A stretch of DNA of 34,296 bases from an uncultured Oscillospiraceae bacterium (GTDB taxonomy: Bacteria > Bacillota > Clostridia > Oscillospirales > Oscillospiraceae). Where the stretch lies: contig CANQKZ010000015.1 in assembly GCA_947624585.1 (NCBI GenBank), positions 1 through 34,296 of the forward strand. Direction: 5' to 3'. Below are positions 6,768 to 22,904 of the stretch, piece after piece. The stretch's first letter is position 1. Each line of letters begins with the position of its first letter. Both the position numbers and the translations under genes were made by a program. Below the pieces are notes generated by a model that saw only the letters and a list, made by a program, of their open reading frames with translations, ran no database searches and was not told the origin of the DNA.

Positions 6768-6808
6768 ACCGGCGCGGGGAACTTAAACCGCGCAAAGGAG
6801 TGATCCGA

Positions 6809-7567
6809 TTGATCGACAAATGGGAGATCGCCCTCTCCGGCGGCATAAGGCGGGCGTATGTCTGCACCCCGGCGGCGGCCCGGTCGGACCCGGACGCCAG
6901 GTTCCCGGTGCTCTATATGTTCGACGGCCACAACGTCTTCTTCGACGCGGACGCCACCTACGGGAAGAGCTGGGGGATGAAGGAATATCTGGAGCGGACC
7001 GGGACGGGGCTCATTGTGGCGGCGGTGGAGTGCAACCACGGGGCCCACGGGGAGAGGCTGTCGGAGTACTCGCCCTTCGATTTCTACGCCCCGGAGTTCG
7101 GCCCCCTGCCTGGGCTGGGGCGGGAGACCATGGAGTGGTACGTCCGGGCCTTCAAGCCCTACGTGGACAGCCATTACCCCACGCTGCCGGACCGGGAGCA
7201 CACGTTCATCGCGGGAAGCTCCATGGGCGGGCTCATGAGTCTCTACGCCGTCAGCGCCTACAACCGGGTCTTCTCCGCCGCCGCGGCGCTGTCGCCCTCC
7301 CTGATGGTGGCCCCCGAGAAGCTGGACGGACTTCTGCGCTCAGCGCCCATGGAGCCGGGGACCCGGATCTACATGGACTACGGCTCCCGGGAGATGGCCC
7401 ACTTGCCGACCGGGAGGGCAGCTAAGCGCTTCGGCGCGGTGGCCGCCGCCCTCATGGAGCGGGGCGCGTTCGTCACGGCCCGGATCGTTCCCGGCGGAGA
7501 GCACTGCGAGGCCAGCTGGGAGAGGCAGATCCCGTTCTTTATGAATACACTTCTTTATAAAAGCTAA
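6809..7567 (+). CDS. esterase-D-like alpha/beta hydrolase
   Basis: PVLYMFDGHNVFFD, nucleophile elbow GSSMGG, C-terminal GGEHCEASW. TTG at 6809 is preferred to GTG at 6800 because AAAGGAG (6794-6800) is ~8 nt upstream of the TTG. Confidence 0.82.
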   Translation: MIDKWEIALSGGIRRAYVCTPAAARSDPDARFPVLYMFDGHNVFFDADATYGKSWGMKEYLERTGTGLIVAAVECNHGAHGERLSEYSPFDFYAPEFGPLPGLGRETMEWYVRAFKPYVDSHYPTLPDREHTFIAGSSMGGLMSLYAVSAYNRVFSAAAALSPSLMVAPEKLDGLLRSAPMEPGTRIYMDYGSREMAHLPTGRAAKRFGAVAAALMERGAFVTARIVPGGEHCEASWERQIPFFMNTLLYKS

Positions 7568-7727
7568 GGAACCTCCGAACAAATCACCGCACCGATCTTG
7601 ACGGCAGATTTTCCGCCATATTTCGTCAAAAAATCTTGAAATACACAAAGTATTCCCGCAATTTTTCCTTCATCTGGCGAAAAATCTGCTCGTCAATTTC
7701 GGCGCTTCGATTTATTCAGAGGTTCCC
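7568..7727. mobile_element. MITE-like palindromic repeat, family A copy 1
   Basis: GGAACCTCCGAACAAATC...GATTTATTCAGAGGTTCCC, flanked both sides by TAA; near-identical to 18531-18692; internal fold-back symmetry. Confidence 0.85.
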
Positions 7728-7777
7728 TAAAATACCTCATATATATCACACAAAACTGAAAGAAAGCGGAAATCACT

Positions 7778-9980: not shown

Positions 9981-10000
9981 ATACTAATATTCAATCAAAA
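9981..10000. repeat. solo family B terminal repeat
   Basis: ATACTAATATTCAATCAAAA, same as the ends of the family B elements, with no element body attached. Confidence 0.7.
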
Positions 10001-10050: not shown

Positions 10051-10212
10051 ATACTAATATCTATTTAAAAGGAGACACCGAGCGGCGAGGATTTTTCGTG
10101 TCAGGCAAGGAAGACGCCTCAGGGAATACTGTATGTATTTTCAAGGCGGCTGACGCAGCATGACGTGAAAAAAGACCGCCGTGAATATCTTGTTTTGATT
10201 GGATATTAGTAT
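10051..10212. mobile_element. MITE-like palindromic repeat, family B copy 1 (opposite orientation to copies 2 and 3)
   Basis: ATACTAATATC...GATATTAGTAT; internal sequence is the reverse complement of the elements at 18524-18849 and 22745-22904. Confidence 0.82.
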
Positions 10213-11650: not shown

Positions 11651-12630
11651 ATCCGGACCTCCGTATTTCCGATCCGCAGCGCCGCAAGGTCGTTCAGGTT
11701 GACGGGGATCCGGAAGTGGGCGGTGCAGAGGAAGTCCTCTCCGTCGGGGTTCCCCAGGTTCTCGTCGCAGGGGATCTCCGCGCCGTCGGACAGGATCGCC
11801 ACAAATTGGTCGGGATCCGGCAGCTCCCGAGAGCTGTCGTGGCAGAAGCGGATGCCGGTGCTGGTGACGGTCACATCCCGGGCGGTGAAGCGGAACGGCT
11901 GGCGCTCCGGGAACGTCTCCCACTCCGCCTCCACGTCGCCCAGGGAGAGGATCTGGAACGCCTCCCGCAGATCCAGGTCGAAGCGGAAGCTCCACTCCCC
12001 CGCCGCCTCCACCTTTTCCCTGTCGCCGAAGGGGCCGCGGCGGGTGAGGTCCCGGAGCGTCAGCTCCACGGGCACCGGGTCCCCCTCCGGGGTGAATCGG
12101 GCGGCGACGGAGGTGTATCGGACCAGGAACAGCAGCGCCCCGGCGCCGTCGCCGCCCTGGAAGGAGCATCCGCAGGCCGACATGGAGGCCGCGGACTCGG
12201 CGGGCCAGCAGGAGAATCCGTCAAATCTGTAGTCGGCGCGGGCCCTGGGCAGGACGCCGGTGACGCGCAGGAGGATCTGGAAGGAGTCGTCCCCCACGGC
12301 GGCGGAGTCCACCGTCACGGTGACGCCGTCCACGGTCCGGCTCCGGCCGATCTCCTGGCTCAGGCCCCGGATCAGGGCCTCCTGGGCCGCGCCCATGGCC
12401 TCGCCGGTGAGGCGGAGCCAGGCTTCACCAAAGAATTCCGTGATGCCCTCCCCCCGGACGGCCGCCGCCACCGTGCCGCACAGGAGCGTCAGCAGAAGCA
12501 CCGCCGCCAGGAGAAGCGGAAGGCGGCGGCTATGCCGCTTGGGCGCCATATCATCGAGCTCATTCAAATATTCCTCGCGCACATCCGAAAGGCCCGCGAA
12601 GAGCCTCCCGGCGCTGTCGGTTTTGTTCAT
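11644..12630 (-). CDS. DUF4179-like anti-sigma factor, single TM
   Basis: MNKTDSAGRLFAGLSDVREEYLNELDDMAPKRHSRRLPLLLAAVLLLTLLCGTVAAAV + extracytoplasmic domain; overlaps the sigma gene by 4 bp. Confidence 0.75.
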   Translation of the reverse strand: MNKTDSAGRLFAGLSDVREEYLNELDDMAPKRHSRRLPLLLAAVLLLTLLCGTVAAAVRGEGITEFFGEAWLRLTGEAMGAAQEALIRGLSQEIGRSRTVDGVTVTVDSAAVGDDSFQILLRVTGVLPRARADYRFDGFSCWPAESAASMSACGCSFQGGDGAGALLFLVRYTSVAARFTPEGDPVPVELTLRDLTRRGPFGDREKVEAAGEWSFRFDLDLREAFQILSLGDVEAEWETFPERQPFRFTARDVTVTSTGIRFCHDSSRELPDPDQFVAILSDGAEIPCDENLGNPDGEDFLCTAHFRIPVNLNDLAALRIGNTEVRIP

Positions 12631-13181
12631 ACGGTCAGTCCCTCCTTCTCCAGGGCGTCCCGGAGGTGCGCGCGAAGGCGCGTCAGGCGCTTGGTGACGC
12701 TGTTGGGCGTACCGCCCGCGCTTTTCGCGATGTCCCGCACGCTCTCGCCCCGCCAATACCGGCGCAGGAAGAGCCGCCGGTCCTCCGGCTTCAGCGAGCC
12801 GAGCCAGAGGTCCAGAAATTCCGTCAGCTCCCGGCCCTCCAGTTCCCGCTCCGGGTCACAGGGGTCGGGGATGCAGTCGGTGAGCTCCTCCAAGAGGAGC
12901 TCCGCGCCGCCCCGGCGCTGCCGGCGGTCCCGCTTCCACCGGTCGAAGGCCAGATTCCGGGTCACACGGGCAAGCCAAAGCCCCAGCCGGTCCGGCCGGT
13001 CCGGAGGGATGGCGTTCCAGGCCCGCAGATACGTGTCGTTGACGCACTCCTCCGCGTCCGGCTCGGAGCCCAGGATATTCACCGCCACCCGGCGGCACAG
13101 GGGACCGTATTTTTTCGCCGTCTCCCCCACCGCCGCCTGCTCCCGGCGGAAGTACAGGTCCAGGATTTCCGCGTCCTCCAA
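12627..13181 (-). CDS. ECF-type sigma-70 family RNA polymerase sigma factor
   Basis: EPDAEECVNDTYLRAWNAIPPDRPDRLGLWLARVTRNLAFDRWKRDRR (region 2) and RRLFLRRYWRGESVRDIAKSAGGTPNSVTKRLTRLRAHLRDAL (region 4). Confidence 0.92.
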   Translation of the reverse strand: MEDAEILDLYFRREQAAVGETAKKYGPLCRRVAVNILGSEPDAEECVNDTYLRAWNAIPPDRPDRLGLWLARVTRNLAFDRWKRDRRQRRGGAELLLEELTDCIPDPCDPERELEGRELTEFLDLWLGSLKPEDRRLFLRRYWRGESVRDIAKSAGGTPNSVTKRLTRLRAHLRDALEKEGLTV

Positions 13182-13205
13182 GGGTCCGCCCCCTTTCTCG
13201 ATCTT

Positions 13206-13219
13206 TTAGGGAACCTCTG
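13206..13219. repeat. solo family A terminal repeat upstream of the ECF sigma gene
   Basis: TTAGGGAACCTCTG, identical to the reverse complement of the family A right end. Confidence 0.6.
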
Positions 13220-15689: not shown

Positions 15690-15938
15690 TTCCACGCTTC
15701 TCCCCTCCTCTATCCGATTTTGTGAAAAATGACATTTTTTCCGCCCCTGTTCCGGGAAAAATTCGGTTTCACAGGGGAAAAATCCTGTTGCGCTCAGCGC
15801 CGGACTGTGGTATGATAAGGGTTGCGCGGAACGTTTTCTCAATGGAAATGCCCAGGCGACAGGGCGTCCGCGCGTTTTGTACGAACGTATTTTTTGAATT
15901 TCCCCAAGGAAACTATTCACTGCGGAAAGAGGAACAGC

Positions 15939-17159
15939 ATGGTAAATATAGCCATACTTGGGTTTGGGACCGTGGGCTCCGGCGTCGCGGAGGTCATGGC
16001 CGAGAACGCCCAGAGCATCGCCCACAACGCCGCCGAAGAGATCGGCGTCAAATACATCCTGGACATCCGGGACTTCCCCGGCTCCCCCTTCGCCGACAGG
16101 ATGGTGAAGGATTTCTCCGTCATCGAGTCCGACCCCGACGTCTCCGTGGTGGTGGAGACCATCGGCGGGGCGCGGGTGGCCTATGAGTACACGAAGCGCG
16201 CGCTCCTGGCGGGAAAGAGCGTGGTCACCTCCAACAAGGAGCTGGTGGCGACACGGGGCCATGAGCTTCTGGAGATCGCCAGAAGAATGAACGTCAACTA
16301 CCTCTTCGAGGCCAGCGTTGGCGGCGGCATCCCCATCATCCGGCCCATCACCCAGTGCCTGACGGCCAACGAGCTGGACGAGATCTACGGCATCCTCAAC
16401 GGCACCACCAACTACATTCTCACCAGGATGATCACCGACGGAGCGCCCTTTGAGGAGATTTTGAAGGACGCCCAGAGGCTCGGCTACGCGGAGGCCGACC
16501 CCACAGCCGACGTTGAAGGATATGACGCGGCGCGGAAAATATGTATCCTGGCGGATCTGTGCTTCGGGAAGAGCGTGGACCCGGAGAGGATCCACATCGA
16601 GGGCATCACCGGCGTGACACTGGAGGACGTGGAGTACGCGCGGCGTCTTGGGTACAAGTTGAAGCTCTTAGGGAGGGCCTACCGACTCCCCGACGGGCAC
16701 ATCACCGCTTACGTGGCGCCCCATCTCATCAGCAAGACCAGCCTCCTCTCCAACGTGGACGGGGTGATGAACGGCATCGTGGTCCACGGCAACGCCCTGG
16801 GCGAGTGTATGTTCTACGGCGCGGGAGCGGGCAAGCGGCCCACCGCCAGCGCGGTGGTGGCCGACATCATCGACGCGGTGAAGCACCGCAAGGCACGGAA
16901 ATACCTGGGCTGGGACGAGTCCGCGCCCGGTTATGTGGTGGACGCGGAGGACGTGAGGACCCGCTGGTACATCCGCACGGGGTCGGGGCTCTCGGCCATC
17001 GGCGGCGCTTTCGGAGACGTGCGGCTTATAAGCTACCCCGGGGAGTACCCCGGCGCGGGGCCGGAGGAGTACGCTTTCGCCACGCCCGAGATGACGGGAC
17101 GGGAACTTGCCGAAAAGACGGCGGGCATGGAGATCCGCAGCCGGTTCCGCATCCTGTGA
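15939..17159 (+). CDS. hom: homoserine dehydrogenase
   Basis: MVNIAILGFGTVGSGVAEV, SVVTSNKELVA, FEASVGGGIPIIRPI, ILNGTTNYILTRM, YAEADPTADVEGYDAARKICILADL. Confidence 0.96.
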   Translation: MVNIAILGFGTVGSGVAEVMAENAQSIAHNAAEEIGVKYILDIRDFPGSPFADRMVKDFSVIESDPDVSVVVETIGGARVAYEYTKRALLAGKSVVTSNKELVATRGHELLEIARRMNVNYLFEASVGGGIPIIRPITQCLTANELDEIYGILNGTTNYILTRMITDGAPFEEILKDAQRLGYAEADPTADVEGYDAARKICILADLCFGKSVDPERIHIEGITGVTLEDVEYARRLGYKLKLLGRAYRLPDGHITAYVAPHLISKTSLLSNVDGVMNGIVVHGNALGECMFYGAGAGKRPTASAVVADIIDAVKHRKARKYLGWDESAPGYVVDAEDVRTRWYIRTGSGLSAIGGAFGDVRLISYPGEYPGAGPEEYAFATPEMTGRELAEKTAGMEIRSRFRIL

Positions 17160-17251: not shown

Positions 17252-18460
17252 ATGGCACTCATTGTACAAAAATTCGGCGGAAGCTCCGTGGCGGACGTGG
17301 AGCGGGTCCGGCGTGTGGCCGGGATCATCTCCGACTGCTACCGCGCCGGAAACGACGTGATCGTGGTCCTCTCCGCCCAGGGCAAAACCACCGACGGACT
17401 TATCGCAAAGGCCCTGGAATATAACCCCAAGCCCTCCAAGCGGGAGATGGATATGCTCCTCAGCACCGGCGAGCAGCAGTCCGTGGCCCTGTGCGCCATG
17501 ATGCTGAACGGCATGGGCGTCCCCGCCGTCAGCCTCACCGGCTGGCAGGTGGATTTCAAGACCAACACCAACTATTCCAACGCATCCATCAAGTCCGTGG
17601 GCAGCGAGCGCATCCGCAAGGAGCTGGACGGGCGCCGGGTGGTGCTGGTCACCGGCTTCCAGGGCATCAACAAGTACGACGACATCACCACCCTGGGGCG
17701 CGGCGGGTCCGACACCTCGGCGGTGGCCATCGCGGCGGCCATGCACGCGGACCTGTGCCAGATCTACACTGACGTGGACGGCGTCTACACAGCCGACCCC
17801 AACAAGGTCCGGGGCGCCAAGAAGCTGGACGAGATCACCTTCGACGAGATGCTGGAGCTCGCCAGCATGGGCGCCAAGGTGCTTCACAACCGCTCCGTGG
17901 AGATGGCGAAGAGATACAACGTGGATCTGGAGGTGCTCTCCAGCTTTGAAAGAGTACCCGGTACTAAAGTCAGGGAGGTAAAGAAATTGGAACAGGTAGA
18001 AGTAAGCGGCGTGGCAAAGGATGTGAACGTAGCCCGTTTCACCCTGGTGGACATCCGGGACGAACCCGGCATCGCCTTTAAGATCTTCCGCATCCTCGCC
18101 AACGAGAAGATCAACGTGGACATCATCATCCAGTCCCTGGGCCGTGAGAACACCCAGGACGTGACCTTCACCGTCAACCGCGCCGACGCCGAGGCCGCCC
18201 GGGAGGCTCTGGAGAACAGCTCCGACTCCCTGGGGTACAAGAAGCTGGACGTGGACACACACGTTGCCAAGATCAGCATCGTGGGCGCGGGTATGCTCAT
18301 GACCAGCGGCGTGGCCGTCAAGATGTTCGACGCGCTTGCGAAAAAGAAGATCAACATCAAGATGATCTCCACCAGCGAGATCAAGGTCTCCGTTCTGGTG
18401 GACGAGGACGACGCCGACAAGGCCGTGCAGGCGGTCCACGACAAGTTCTTCGGGGACTGA
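17252..18460 (+). CDS. aspartate kinase with C-terminal ACT domains
   Basis: [65 protein letters not shown], two ACT modules. Confidence 0.96.
17987..18460 (+). CDS. possible separately translated aspartokinase beta subunit (internal in-frame start)
   Basis: SD AGGGAGG (17972-17978) 8 nt upstream of in-frame TTG at 17987 (codon 246 of 402); product (M)[22 protein letters not shown]..., 157 aa. Confidence 0.55.
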   Translation: MEQVEVSGVAKDVNVARFTLVDIRDEPGIAFKIFRILANEKINVDIIIQSLGRENTQDVTFTVNRADAEAAREALENSSDSLGYKKLDVDTHVAKISIVGAGMLMTSGVAVKMFDALAKKKINIKMISTSEIKVSVLVDEDDADKAVQAVHDKFFGD

Positions 18461-18504: not shown

Positions 18505-18523
18505 GTTCGTATGTCTGTGGTTA

Positions 18524-18849
18524 ATACTAAGGAACCTCTGAACAAATCGCCGCACCGATCTTGACGACATATTTTCCGCCATATTTCGTCAAAAAATTTT
18601 GAAATACACAAAGTATTCCTGCAATTTTTTGCCTTCATCTGGCGAAAAATCTGCTCGTCAATCTCGGCACTTCGATTTATTCAGAGGTTCCCTAATATTC
18701 AATCAAAGCAAGACATTCGCGACGGTCTTTTTCGGGTCATGCTTCGTCACGCGGCTTGGAAATACATACAGTATTCCCGGCGCCGCCTTCCTCGTCTGAC
18801 ACGAAAAATCCTCATCGCTCGGTGTCTTATTTTAATTGAATATTAGTAT
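18524..18849. mobile_element. MITE-like family B copy 2, interrupted by family A copy 2
   Basis: Left end ATACTAA (18524-18530), then A element 18531-18692, then TAATATTCAATCAAAGC... resumes; right end AATTGAATATTAGTAT at 18849. Confidence 0.82.
18531..18692. mobile_element. MITE-like family A copy 2, nested in family B terminal repeat
   Basis: GGAACCTCTGAACAAATCGCCGCACCGATCTTGACG...CGATTTATTCAGAGGTTCCC with TAA on both flanks. Confidence 0.87.
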
Positions 18850-20297
18850 TACTGTTTTCCGTTGAATTTGAAGCCCGGGAACTCATCGGGGGCGACGGTC
18901 TCAACCTGTTCCCCGTCCACGGTGAAGGTGCCCTCCGGGACGCCATTGTCCTCCCCCACGGTGAAGGCGGAGTAGAGGACCGCCTGGCGGCGGTGGTCGA
19001 AATCGCCGGAGAGCTGGATCTCCGACGGGGCGCCGGTTTGGGTGAGCGCGTCGGCGAGGGTGCGGTGGTAGTAGTTCATCTGGCAGGAGTAGATAGACCG
19101 CAGGGTGTCGGCGCGGGAGAGGGTGTAGAGGATATAGCCCTCGGTGTCCTCAGCCGTCAGAGGGACGAAGACGTTCCCACGAATCACGGCCTCGCTCCGG
19201 GGGCCGAAGAGGCCGCCCAGGGTGCGGGTCTCCGCCGTCAGGTCCGCGAAGGGGACCGTGTACGTCTGTCCGCGTTGCCGGTAGACCAGGCGTCCGGAGG
19301 GTTCCCCGGTCCGGGTCAGGCCCTCGGACTGGGTGAGGTAAAGCGCGTCGCCCCACTTAGGGCCGCCCTCCAGCCAGCGGAAGTATTGCAGGATGAACAC
19401 CCGGCCGTCGGGAAGCTCCCCGGTGAGGTCGCACGCCTCCAGGCCGGTGACGGCGTTCATGCCGGCGCCATCCTGCCAGGAGATCTGGATGTTCCCGGCG
19501 CTGTCTATCAGGGCCGCGTCCTCCGGCGTCAGGATCCGGGCGATTTGGGCGGGCGCCGCCTCCGTCAGGGCCGCCTCGTCCGGCGGGGTGAAGATCTCCG
19601 CCTCCGGCACCGAGAGAGACAGGCCGAGCGCCGCGCCGCAGAGGGTCGCGGCGAGGAGTCCCGCCAGGGCAACCGCGGCGAAGGCTCCGTCCGAGAGACG
19701 CACCGGCGCGTTGCGCAGGGCGTACCCGGTGTCGCCCAGGGCGGCGTGCAGGCGGCTGACGGCAATGAGCACGGCGATATATCCCGCCAGCAGAAGGATC
19801 CCGAAAAATCCCAAACTTCCCCAGTCCATCAATGCCCCCACAGCCAGGAGCAGGCTGAAGGCCAGGAGCAGGTTCACGGGCCACAGCCTCCCGGGCGTGC
19901 CGGTCCGGGCGAACACCCGCCCCATCCCAACGCGGAAGGCCGCCAGCTGGGCCGCCTGCAAAAGGAGCGAAGGCACAGTCAGTTCATCAACGGAGAAAAA
20001 CGGCGAAGTCCGCAGGGCTCGGACGGCGAACATCAGCGCAAGCCGCAGGAGCGACAGGACCCAGGCCGCCCGGAAGCCGCCGTTCTCCCGCCGCAGAGCC
20101 CGGAATCCCAGGACCGTCAGAACCGCCCCCACCGGCGGCAGGAGCCGGTCCAGGTAGAGAAAGTTGAAGATGACGGTGGTCAGGAGGATGCCCCAGGCGA
20201 TGAAGCGGACGGGCCGCCGCCAGGTGTCGATCCGCTCCACGTCCCCGCCGTCGGGGTCGGGCAGGTCGGCCAGAAGCTCTTCAAACCGGTCATCCAT
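18849..20297 (-). CDS. multi-TM membrane protein, probable anti-sigma partner of the adjacent ECF factor
   Basis: ~482 aa; MDDRFEELLADLPDPDGGDVERIDTWRRPVRFIAWGILLTTVIFNFLYLDRLLPP..., several TMs then extracytoplasmic C-terminal domain; overlaps the sigma gene. Start chosen at the internal Met of the 18849..20306 ORF. Confidence 0.65.
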   Translation of the reverse strand: MDDRFEELLADLPDPDGGDVERIDTWRRPVRFIAWGILLTTVIFNFLYLDRLLPPVGAVLTVLGFRALRRENGGFRAAWVLSLLRLALMFAVRALRTSPFFSVDELTVPSLLLQAAQLAAFRVGMGRVFARTGTPGRLWPVNLLLAFSLLLAVGALMDWGSLGFFGILLLAGYIAVLIAVSRLHAALGDTGYALRNAPVRLSDGAFAAVALAGLLAATLCGAALGLSLSVPEAEIFTPPDEAALTEAAPAQIARILTPEDAALIDSAGNIQISWQDGAGMNAVTGLEACDLTGELPDGRVFILQYFRWLEGGPKWGDALYLTQSEGLTRTGEPSGRLVYRQRGQTYTVPFADLTAETRTLGGLFGPRSEAVIRGNVFVPLTAEDTEGYILYTLSRADTLRSIYSCQMNYYHRTLADALTQTGAPSEIQLSGDFDHRRQAVLYSAFTVGEDNGVPEGTFTVDGEQVETVAPDEFPGFKFNGKQ

Positions 20298-20823
20298 CCT
20301 CATCACCTCCCAGCAGTTCCCGGAGCCGCCGCTTCGCCCGGTAGAGCCGCCCCTCCACCGCCCGCGCCGTCAGGCCCAGCTCCGCCGCGATTTGGGCGGT
20401 GGGCTGGCGGTACCAGTATTTTCTATAGATGAGACGCCGGTCGGAGGCGGGCAGTTCCTCCAGCGCCCGGCGCAGGGATTCCTCCCGTTCCCGGCGCAGA
20501 AGCTCCTCCTCCGGGGTGGTCCCGGAGGCCAGGGATTCGTCGAGCTGCGTCTCCTCTCCCCTCTTCCGCCGGGCCATGGAGACGGCGGCGTTCCGGGCCA
20601 CGGCGGTGATCCAGGGCTTCAGGGGCCGCGACGGGTCCAGGGCGGAGGCGGAGGACAGGAGCCTTAAGTACACGTCGCTGACGCACTCCTCCGCGTCCCG
20701 GGCGTCGGGAAGGATGGCGTCCACCACGTAGCGGATGAGCGCCCCGTACCGCCGCCGCAGCTCCGGCAGCGCGTCCCCGCCGCCGCGCCGCAGGAGCTCC
20801 GAAAGCTCTTCCAACCTCCTCAC
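20290..20823 (-). CDS. ECF-type sigma-70 family RNA polymerase sigma factor
   Basis: DARDAEECVSDVYLRLLSSASALDPSRPLKPWITAVARNAAVSMARRKR and ASDRRLIYRKYWYRQPTAQIAAELGLTARAVEGRLYRAKRRLRELL. Confidence 0.92.
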   Translation of the reverse strand: MRRLEELSELLRRGGGDALPELRRRYGALIRYVVDAILPDARDAEECVSDVYLRLLSSASALDPSRPLKPWITAVARNAAVSMARRKRGEETQLDESLASGTTPEEELLRREREESLRRALEELPASDRRLIYRKYWYRQPTAQIAAELGLTARAVEGRLYRAKRRLRELLGGDEDG

Positions 20824-22744: not shown

Positions 22745-22904
22745 ATACTAATATCCAATCAAAGCAAGACATTTGCGGCGGTCTTTTTTGCGCCATACTT
22801 CGTCAGCCTGCTTGGAAATACGACAGTATTCCCTGCGCAGTCTTCCTCGTCTGGCGCTAAAAATCCTCGCCGCTCGGTATCTTCCTTTAATTGAATATCA
22901 GTAT
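22745..22904. mobile_element. MITE-like family B copy 3
   Basis: ATACTAATATCCAATCAAAGCAAGACATTTGCGGCGGTC...CGCCGCTCGGTATCTTCCTTTAATTGAATATCAGTAT; same architecture as copies 1 and 2. Confidence 0.85.

Follow-up and report, generated by a model that had tools for sequence, protein, structure and literature searches.

A hairpin element nested in the terminal repeat of a second hairpin element downstream of ask in an uncultured Oscillospiraceae bacterium, and a core likely shared by the two families

Results

The 34,296 nucleotides analysed here, referred to as the window, belong to contig C15 of the draft genome of an uncultured Oscillospiraceae bacterium (3.28 Mb in 290 contigs). The window contains hom, encoding homoserine dehydrogenase (15822-17159), upstream of ask, which encodes aspartate kinase (17252-18460, plus strand; 546 bits to NF005155, cut-off 346). 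This kinase shares 94-95% identity with its counterparts in metagenome bins of uncultured Oscillospiraceae. The gap between ask and a convergent open reading frame (ORF) at 18849-20306 is occupied by two repetitive elements, A and B, one of which is nested in the other.

From position 18524 the sequence reads ATACTAA|GGAACCTCTGAA...TTCAGAGGTTCC|CTAATATTCAATCAAAGC. The junction and the alignment of A copies place element A, a non-autonomous hairpin of 161 bp with the terminal repeats GGAACCTCTGAA and TTCAGAGGTTCC and the outermost bases GGAACC...GGTTCC, at 18531-18691 (plus strand, as are the features of A and B listed next). It is flanked by two copies of CTAA, at 18527-18530 and 18692-18695, as judged from the junction sequence and from comparison with other A copies. 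Comparison with other B copies identifies the bases to the left of A (TACTAA, 18525-18530) as the outer piece of the left terminal repeat of B, severed by A from the rest of that element (TATTCAATCAAAGC ... TTAGTA, 18696-18848). The rejoined B measures 161 bp when the flanking A and T are counted. By the target rule derived below from B copies, B lies between two copies of a TNA triplet, TAA at 18522-18524 and TTA at 18849-18851, which match imperfectly; the right triplet, read on the minus strand, serves ORF 18849-20306 as its stop codon, TAA.

A thus sits, flanked by its own duplication, inside an otherwise intact B, and both elements are repeated throughout the genome. An earlier note on this DNA had recognised the nested insertion from the junction at 18524, and that reading holds, as does its use of the junction to set the boundaries of A, except for one base: the note counted the C of CTAA as part of A, whereas it is part of the duplication, and for that reason described a duplication of TAA or TA. 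It proposed to decide between the two by aligning A junctions genome-wide; the alignment supports neither, since the direct repeat is 4 bp long at most of 45 full-length copies. Removal of A does restore the end of B, as the note stated, provided that A is excised with one CTAA instead of one TAA; the product is a B of 161 bp with an intact 19-bp end.

Element A and its affiliation with the IS5 group

Copy counts given here rest on pattern searches and on stretches of sequence fetched from the genome. The terminal repeat of A has 171 matches in this genome compared with 9 for a reversed-pattern control, which corresponds to about 85 copies. Being present in many copies, 161 bp long (well within the ~600 bp that MITEs may reach) and devoid of a transposase gene, A has the properties of a MITE. 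The 45 full-length copies are 159-161 bp long, and most carry a perfect 4-bp direct repeat immediately outside GGAACC...GGTTCC: CTAA at the focal site and CTAA, TTAG, TTAA, CTTG or TTTA elsewhere, that is, duplications of the YTAR type. Shorter relatives of 51-146 bp are also present. The window holds a second copy of 159 bp (7568-7726, plus strand) between CTAA duplications at 7564-7567 and 7727-7730. A truncated left end of A (TTAG GGAACCTCTG) is found at 13206-13219, where ORF 11716-13209 has its stop codon.

The 18-bp end pattern of A, GGAACCTCTGAAYAARTC, is present on complete 1196-bp IS5-group elements at two loci on viral contigs (L338 and L339), where the elements are flanked by CTAG/CTAG and CTAA/CTAA. 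The transposase of this type has 324 amino acids and scores 349 bits against the NCBIfam IS5 model NF033581 (cut-off 140). An IS5 element from the same genus (L375, L388) matches A at 15 and 14 of the 18 end positions and is flanked by CAAG or CTTG duplications. A therefore resembles the IS5 group of the IS5 family and its MITEs in both the terminal repeat and the 4-bp YTAR-type duplication, and differs from the complete elements in lacking a transposase and in having a gene-less 161-bp hairpin as its interior. From these likenesses we infer that A is a non-autonomous member (MITE) of the IS5 group, which an IS5-group transposase would mobilise. IS5 relatives of the DUF4096 type were considered as partners of A and rejected because their ends do not match. 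The two IS5 copies at L375 and L388 (genome G020) have both landed in another repeated hairpin, CCTCCCCCAAGGGGGAGG, at an identical position (CAAG).

Element B and its affiliation with the IS630 family

The ends of B have 335 matches in this genome and the reversed-pattern control has one. The boundaries, TACTAATATT...AATATTAGTA, enclose an element of about 159 bp and were determined from 59 copies with intact ends in this genome and its genus-mates. Position -2, two bases beyond the left ATAC, is T in 53 of the 59 copies and position +2, two bases beyond the right GTAT, is A in 58, and the middle base is the same on both sides in 45 copies compared with 18 expected under shuffled pairing. The nearly invariant flanks together with the matching middle base indicate a 3-bp duplication, TNA; a 1-bp duplication was dropped in favour of this rule because the outer two positions are nearly invariant. 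Intact copies of B without A are numerous. Two of them lie in the window, an intact hairpin of 162 bp at 10051-10212 (minus strand) and a copy at 22745-22904 (plus strand) that serves as the reference for an unoccupied B end. The former is preceded by a solitary 19-bp left end of B (9981-9999) and a terminator-like GC hairpin.

An IS630-family element of the same genus (L392, L412) has ends of the B type, agreeing with the terminal repeat of B, TACTAATATTCAATTAAA, at 16 of 18 positions at both ends, and is flanked by TGA/TGA; the transposase ORF at L392 scores 133 bits against NF033545 (cut-off 100). A second IS630-family element of the genus (L411) has the right end TACTAATCTCTAATTAAAACAAGACAATAT, identical at 27 of 30 positions to a B variant from genome G014 of the same genus, and the duplication TTA/TTA. 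The genome under study has 11 IS630-type DDE matches. IS630 elements are known to duplicate TA, and RUP of pneumococcus is an IS630-related MITE; RUP and the IS630-family elements form the closest known system for B. These elements and B have the terminal repeat and a short target in common. B differs in being gene-less, and the duplication in B and in both complete elements is TNA (3 bp), not TA. On the strength of its ends and flanks we file B as a putative MITE of an IS630-like subgroup with TNA duplication, as opposed to the canonical TA-duplicating IS630.

Coincidence of insertion sites with stop codons

TNA amounts to TAA, TGA or the complement of either, and a TAA or TAG can be read in YTAR on each strand. 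Of the 59 B copies, 14 have a TNA that coincides exactly with the stop codon of a neighbouring open frame (80 codons or longer). The A duplication falls at such a stop codon in 15 of 45 copies, although some of these frames may run into B. The other A copy of the window lies at the stop of ORF 6800-7567 (duplication at 7564-7567). At such sites, which include 18849-18851 and 7564-7567 in the window and loci L041, L044, L057 and L059, the stop codon is duplicated and the gene left intact. The coincidence follows from the target rules combined with selection against insertion within genes. An insertion at the last codon that duplicates the stop may help to explain how these elements could rise to high copy number harmlessly.

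Discussion

Their ends and target duplications indicate that A and B are MITEs of two unrelated transposase families. The sequence shows that B was at the locus first and that A arrived later, and it is highly probable that B was brought there by an IS630-family enzyme and A by an IS5-group enzyme, probably in both cases by cut-and-paste. According to this history, B (~159 bp) would have inserted into a TNA triplet between the convergent ask and ORF 18849-20306, mobilised in trans by an IS630-family transposase. An IS5-group transposase, likewise acting in trans, would subsequently have moved the 161-bp A into the YTAR motif CTAA of the B terminal repeat TACTAATATT, duplicating CTAA and splitting the repeat. 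The focal A differs from its consensus at 2 of 161 positions and the rejoined focal B at 10 from its own, which fits A as the later arrival. As the left end of B is broken, the focal B is probably immobile, whereas A keeps both of its ends. Nesting of A in B, one MITE within another, is nothing unusual in itself. The nested copy dates two abundant mobile repeats of uncultured gut bacteria cleanly relative to each other and fixes their boundaries exactly.

Several points count against this history. Complete transposase partners for A and B were not found in this genome, whose 290-contig assembly is fragmented and breaks at repeats, so that we infer mobilisation in trans; the TNA copies of the focal B are imperfect (TAA and TTA); and the TA duplication usual for IS630 does not agree with TNA. 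The orthologous empty site was not found either. The earlier note had suggested a search for relatives with an uninterrupted B at this site, which should read ATACTAATATTCAATC, but across the 30 genus loci read (own genome included) none of the relatives has retained it, and genus-mates diverge throughout the region downstream of ask. The A-free state of B was taken from other B copies. In another species (G021, locus L189) an independent A lies just downstream of ask, and B is absent.

Does A favour the ends of B as targets?

About 22 of the 45 full-length A copies are inserted in the CTAA or TTAG of a B end (25 by a looser criterion that admits L013, L070 and L298, discounted as weak). This raises the question of whether A specifically targets B ends, transposon into transposon, beyond what the supply of CTAA would produce. 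In a 154-kb sample, B ends account for 6 of 34 unoccupied intergenic CTAA/TTAG sites, and against this share of 18% the excess is pronounced (P ~1e-6). However, the sample is small and was drawn from large contigs. Genome-wide, the frequency of B ends is about 2.5 times higher (335 matches), which brings the expected share to about a third and nearly removes the excess. Moreover, A sites outside B have the same YTAR core. We regard such targeting as rather unlikely; given the many intergenic CTAA sites that B ends themselves supply, the data do not establish that A prefers B.

A hairpin core common to A and B

A and B, both 161 bp as first measured, are predicted to fold into full-length hairpins with energies of -60 and -66 kcal/mol, respectively. 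Their hairpin tips, located by folding, tip pattern search and alignment, are GAAATACACAAAGTATTCC at 18601-18619 in A and GAAATACATACAGTATTCC at 18759-18777 in B (both plus strand) and share a core motif that the earlier note did not report. The terminal 24 bases of the two elements are unrelated, with only 2/24 and 4/24 identities. The global alignment score of A with B is nevertheless 19, compared with -27.8 +/- 5.2 for palindrome-preserving shuffles, a difference of 8.9 SD. The tip pattern GRAATAC-N5-GTATTYC occurs at 171 places per strand in this genome, with no matches to the reversed pattern, and its exact form is present in 25 of 34 genus genomes. A longer form is found in 63 of 301 genomes of the family, representing 42 of 106 genera, with almost no reversed-pattern matches.

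The inspected family loci are mostly hairpins, about 150-177 bp in length, with a variety of ends, among them GGAACCTCTGA, GGAAACGCTGA, GGCAACACCGCACAATTG, AGAACCTGTATTCACAAC, TTAGAGCCTGTTGAGCAT and GGTAAACGCCGATCC. Loci L342-L371 and L237-L241, from family and genus genomes, are ~160-bp hairpins with the tip CTTGAAATACA-N3-AGTATTCC and many different terminal repeats. In an alignment of about 24 elements the tip is conserved together with TGCG, CCTT, AAAAT and CTCGCC, and the arms and ends vary. Since the tip served as the search criterion, its conservation in this alignment is partly by construction; A and B themselves were found by their ends. Double changes are seen in 8 of 15 predicted consensus pairs. 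Since template switching, which can homogenise palindrome arms, could also be what keeps the arms complementary, the covariation does not prove a selected RNA. In Rfam, the sole low-E match, to a microRNA-precursor model, scores 40 bits, well short of the threshold of 211, as expected from a long palindrome.

The most likely explanation is that the hairpin core descends from a common ancestor and that the terminal repeats around it were replaced. The similarity might alternatively have arisen by convergence or chance, such that any long palindrome with an AT-rich tip would look alike: both elements are near-perfect palindromes of equal length, which inflates their apparent similarity, and template switching could homogenise their arms. 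We consider this improbable given that the shuffles preserve the palindrome and still fall 8.9 SD short, that matches to the exact and longer tips are widespread in the genus and family and reversed matches few, and that positions outside the searched tip are kept across the ~24 elements.

Common descent of the core leads us to propose, tentatively and as a view that falls slightly short of an even chance, that a ~110-bp module tipped by GAAATACA-N3-AGTATTCC is carried across the family (42 of the 106 sampled genera) between ends that belong to no fewer than two unrelated DDE families (IS5, IS630), and between several further types of end. The core would persist and the ends be exchanged, as in a single hairpin parasite that repeatedly changes its mobilising enzyme. 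If ends do swap around a constant hairpin, a classification of MITEs based on the ends conceals how they are really related by descent, and one can then test whether the core is selected, be it for ending transcripts, protein binding or aiding transposition. Searches of the literature by tip and end sequence strings returned no relevant paper. TIMEs, mosaic Tn3-derived miniature elements, are comparable in that their movement is described as producing mosaic elements (PMC4133298); A and B differ from what is described there in that one core is combined with the ends of unrelated transposase families in many genera. As far as the open literature searched shows, the novelty of these observations lies in the shared core and its exchangeable ends.

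Independent insertions and composite elements

About half of the full-length A copies examined adjoin B ends, as would be expected if A and B moved as one fused composite of which the junction at 18524 is merely one copy. Composites that look like units do exist: at several loci a B subfamily (B2) occupies one and the same position within A, and nests of the form A[B2[A]] are among them. For the A-in-B junctions, however, a fused unit is very improbable. They are found at different loci, at the left or right end of B, with A in both orientations, and in several host subfamilies (TATTCAAT, TATCCAAT, TGTTCAAT and TACTCAAC); about ten A-carrying B copies keep perfect TNA duplications of their own, which vary among TCA, TGA, TAA and TTA. 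In addition, many intact B copies are free of A, and B ends hold only about half of the A copies. This variety indicates repeated independent insertions. The earlier note named a fused A+B unit always having the same junction as the finding that would contradict it, and no such unit was encountered; its view that A moved as a unit into a B already present is borne out by the independent junctions and fits the smaller number of consensus differences in A.

It is extremely unlikely that A and B are REP/REPIN-like repeats mobilised by a single-strand Y1 (RAYT) transposase, which their high copy number, intergenic location and hairpins might suggest, given that Y1 enzymes leave no target duplication and that A and B have clean duplications of 4 and 3 bp and ends matching those of DDE-transposase elements.

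The reverse composites, with a B subfamily inside A, were likewise absent from the earlier note. They are located at L054 1670-1992, L303 578-900, L090 1501-1921, L296 590-1008 and L029 1437-1661. The point of insertion in A is always the same, some of the composites share further internal changes, some contain an extra insert of about 96 bp, and one is a three-level nest, A[B[A]]. They look like copies of one composite moved on the ends of A, and their outer duplications are poor.

Other elements also insert into these hairpins. Locus L377, which has a PF05598 match with B ends on both sides, was considered as a partner of B and rejected, as it proved to be a B copy interrupted by an IS1182 element. 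At L377 (344-2036) and at L258 (G030) an IS1182-family element lies within the B hairpin, near the tip and not, as A does, in the terminal CTAA.
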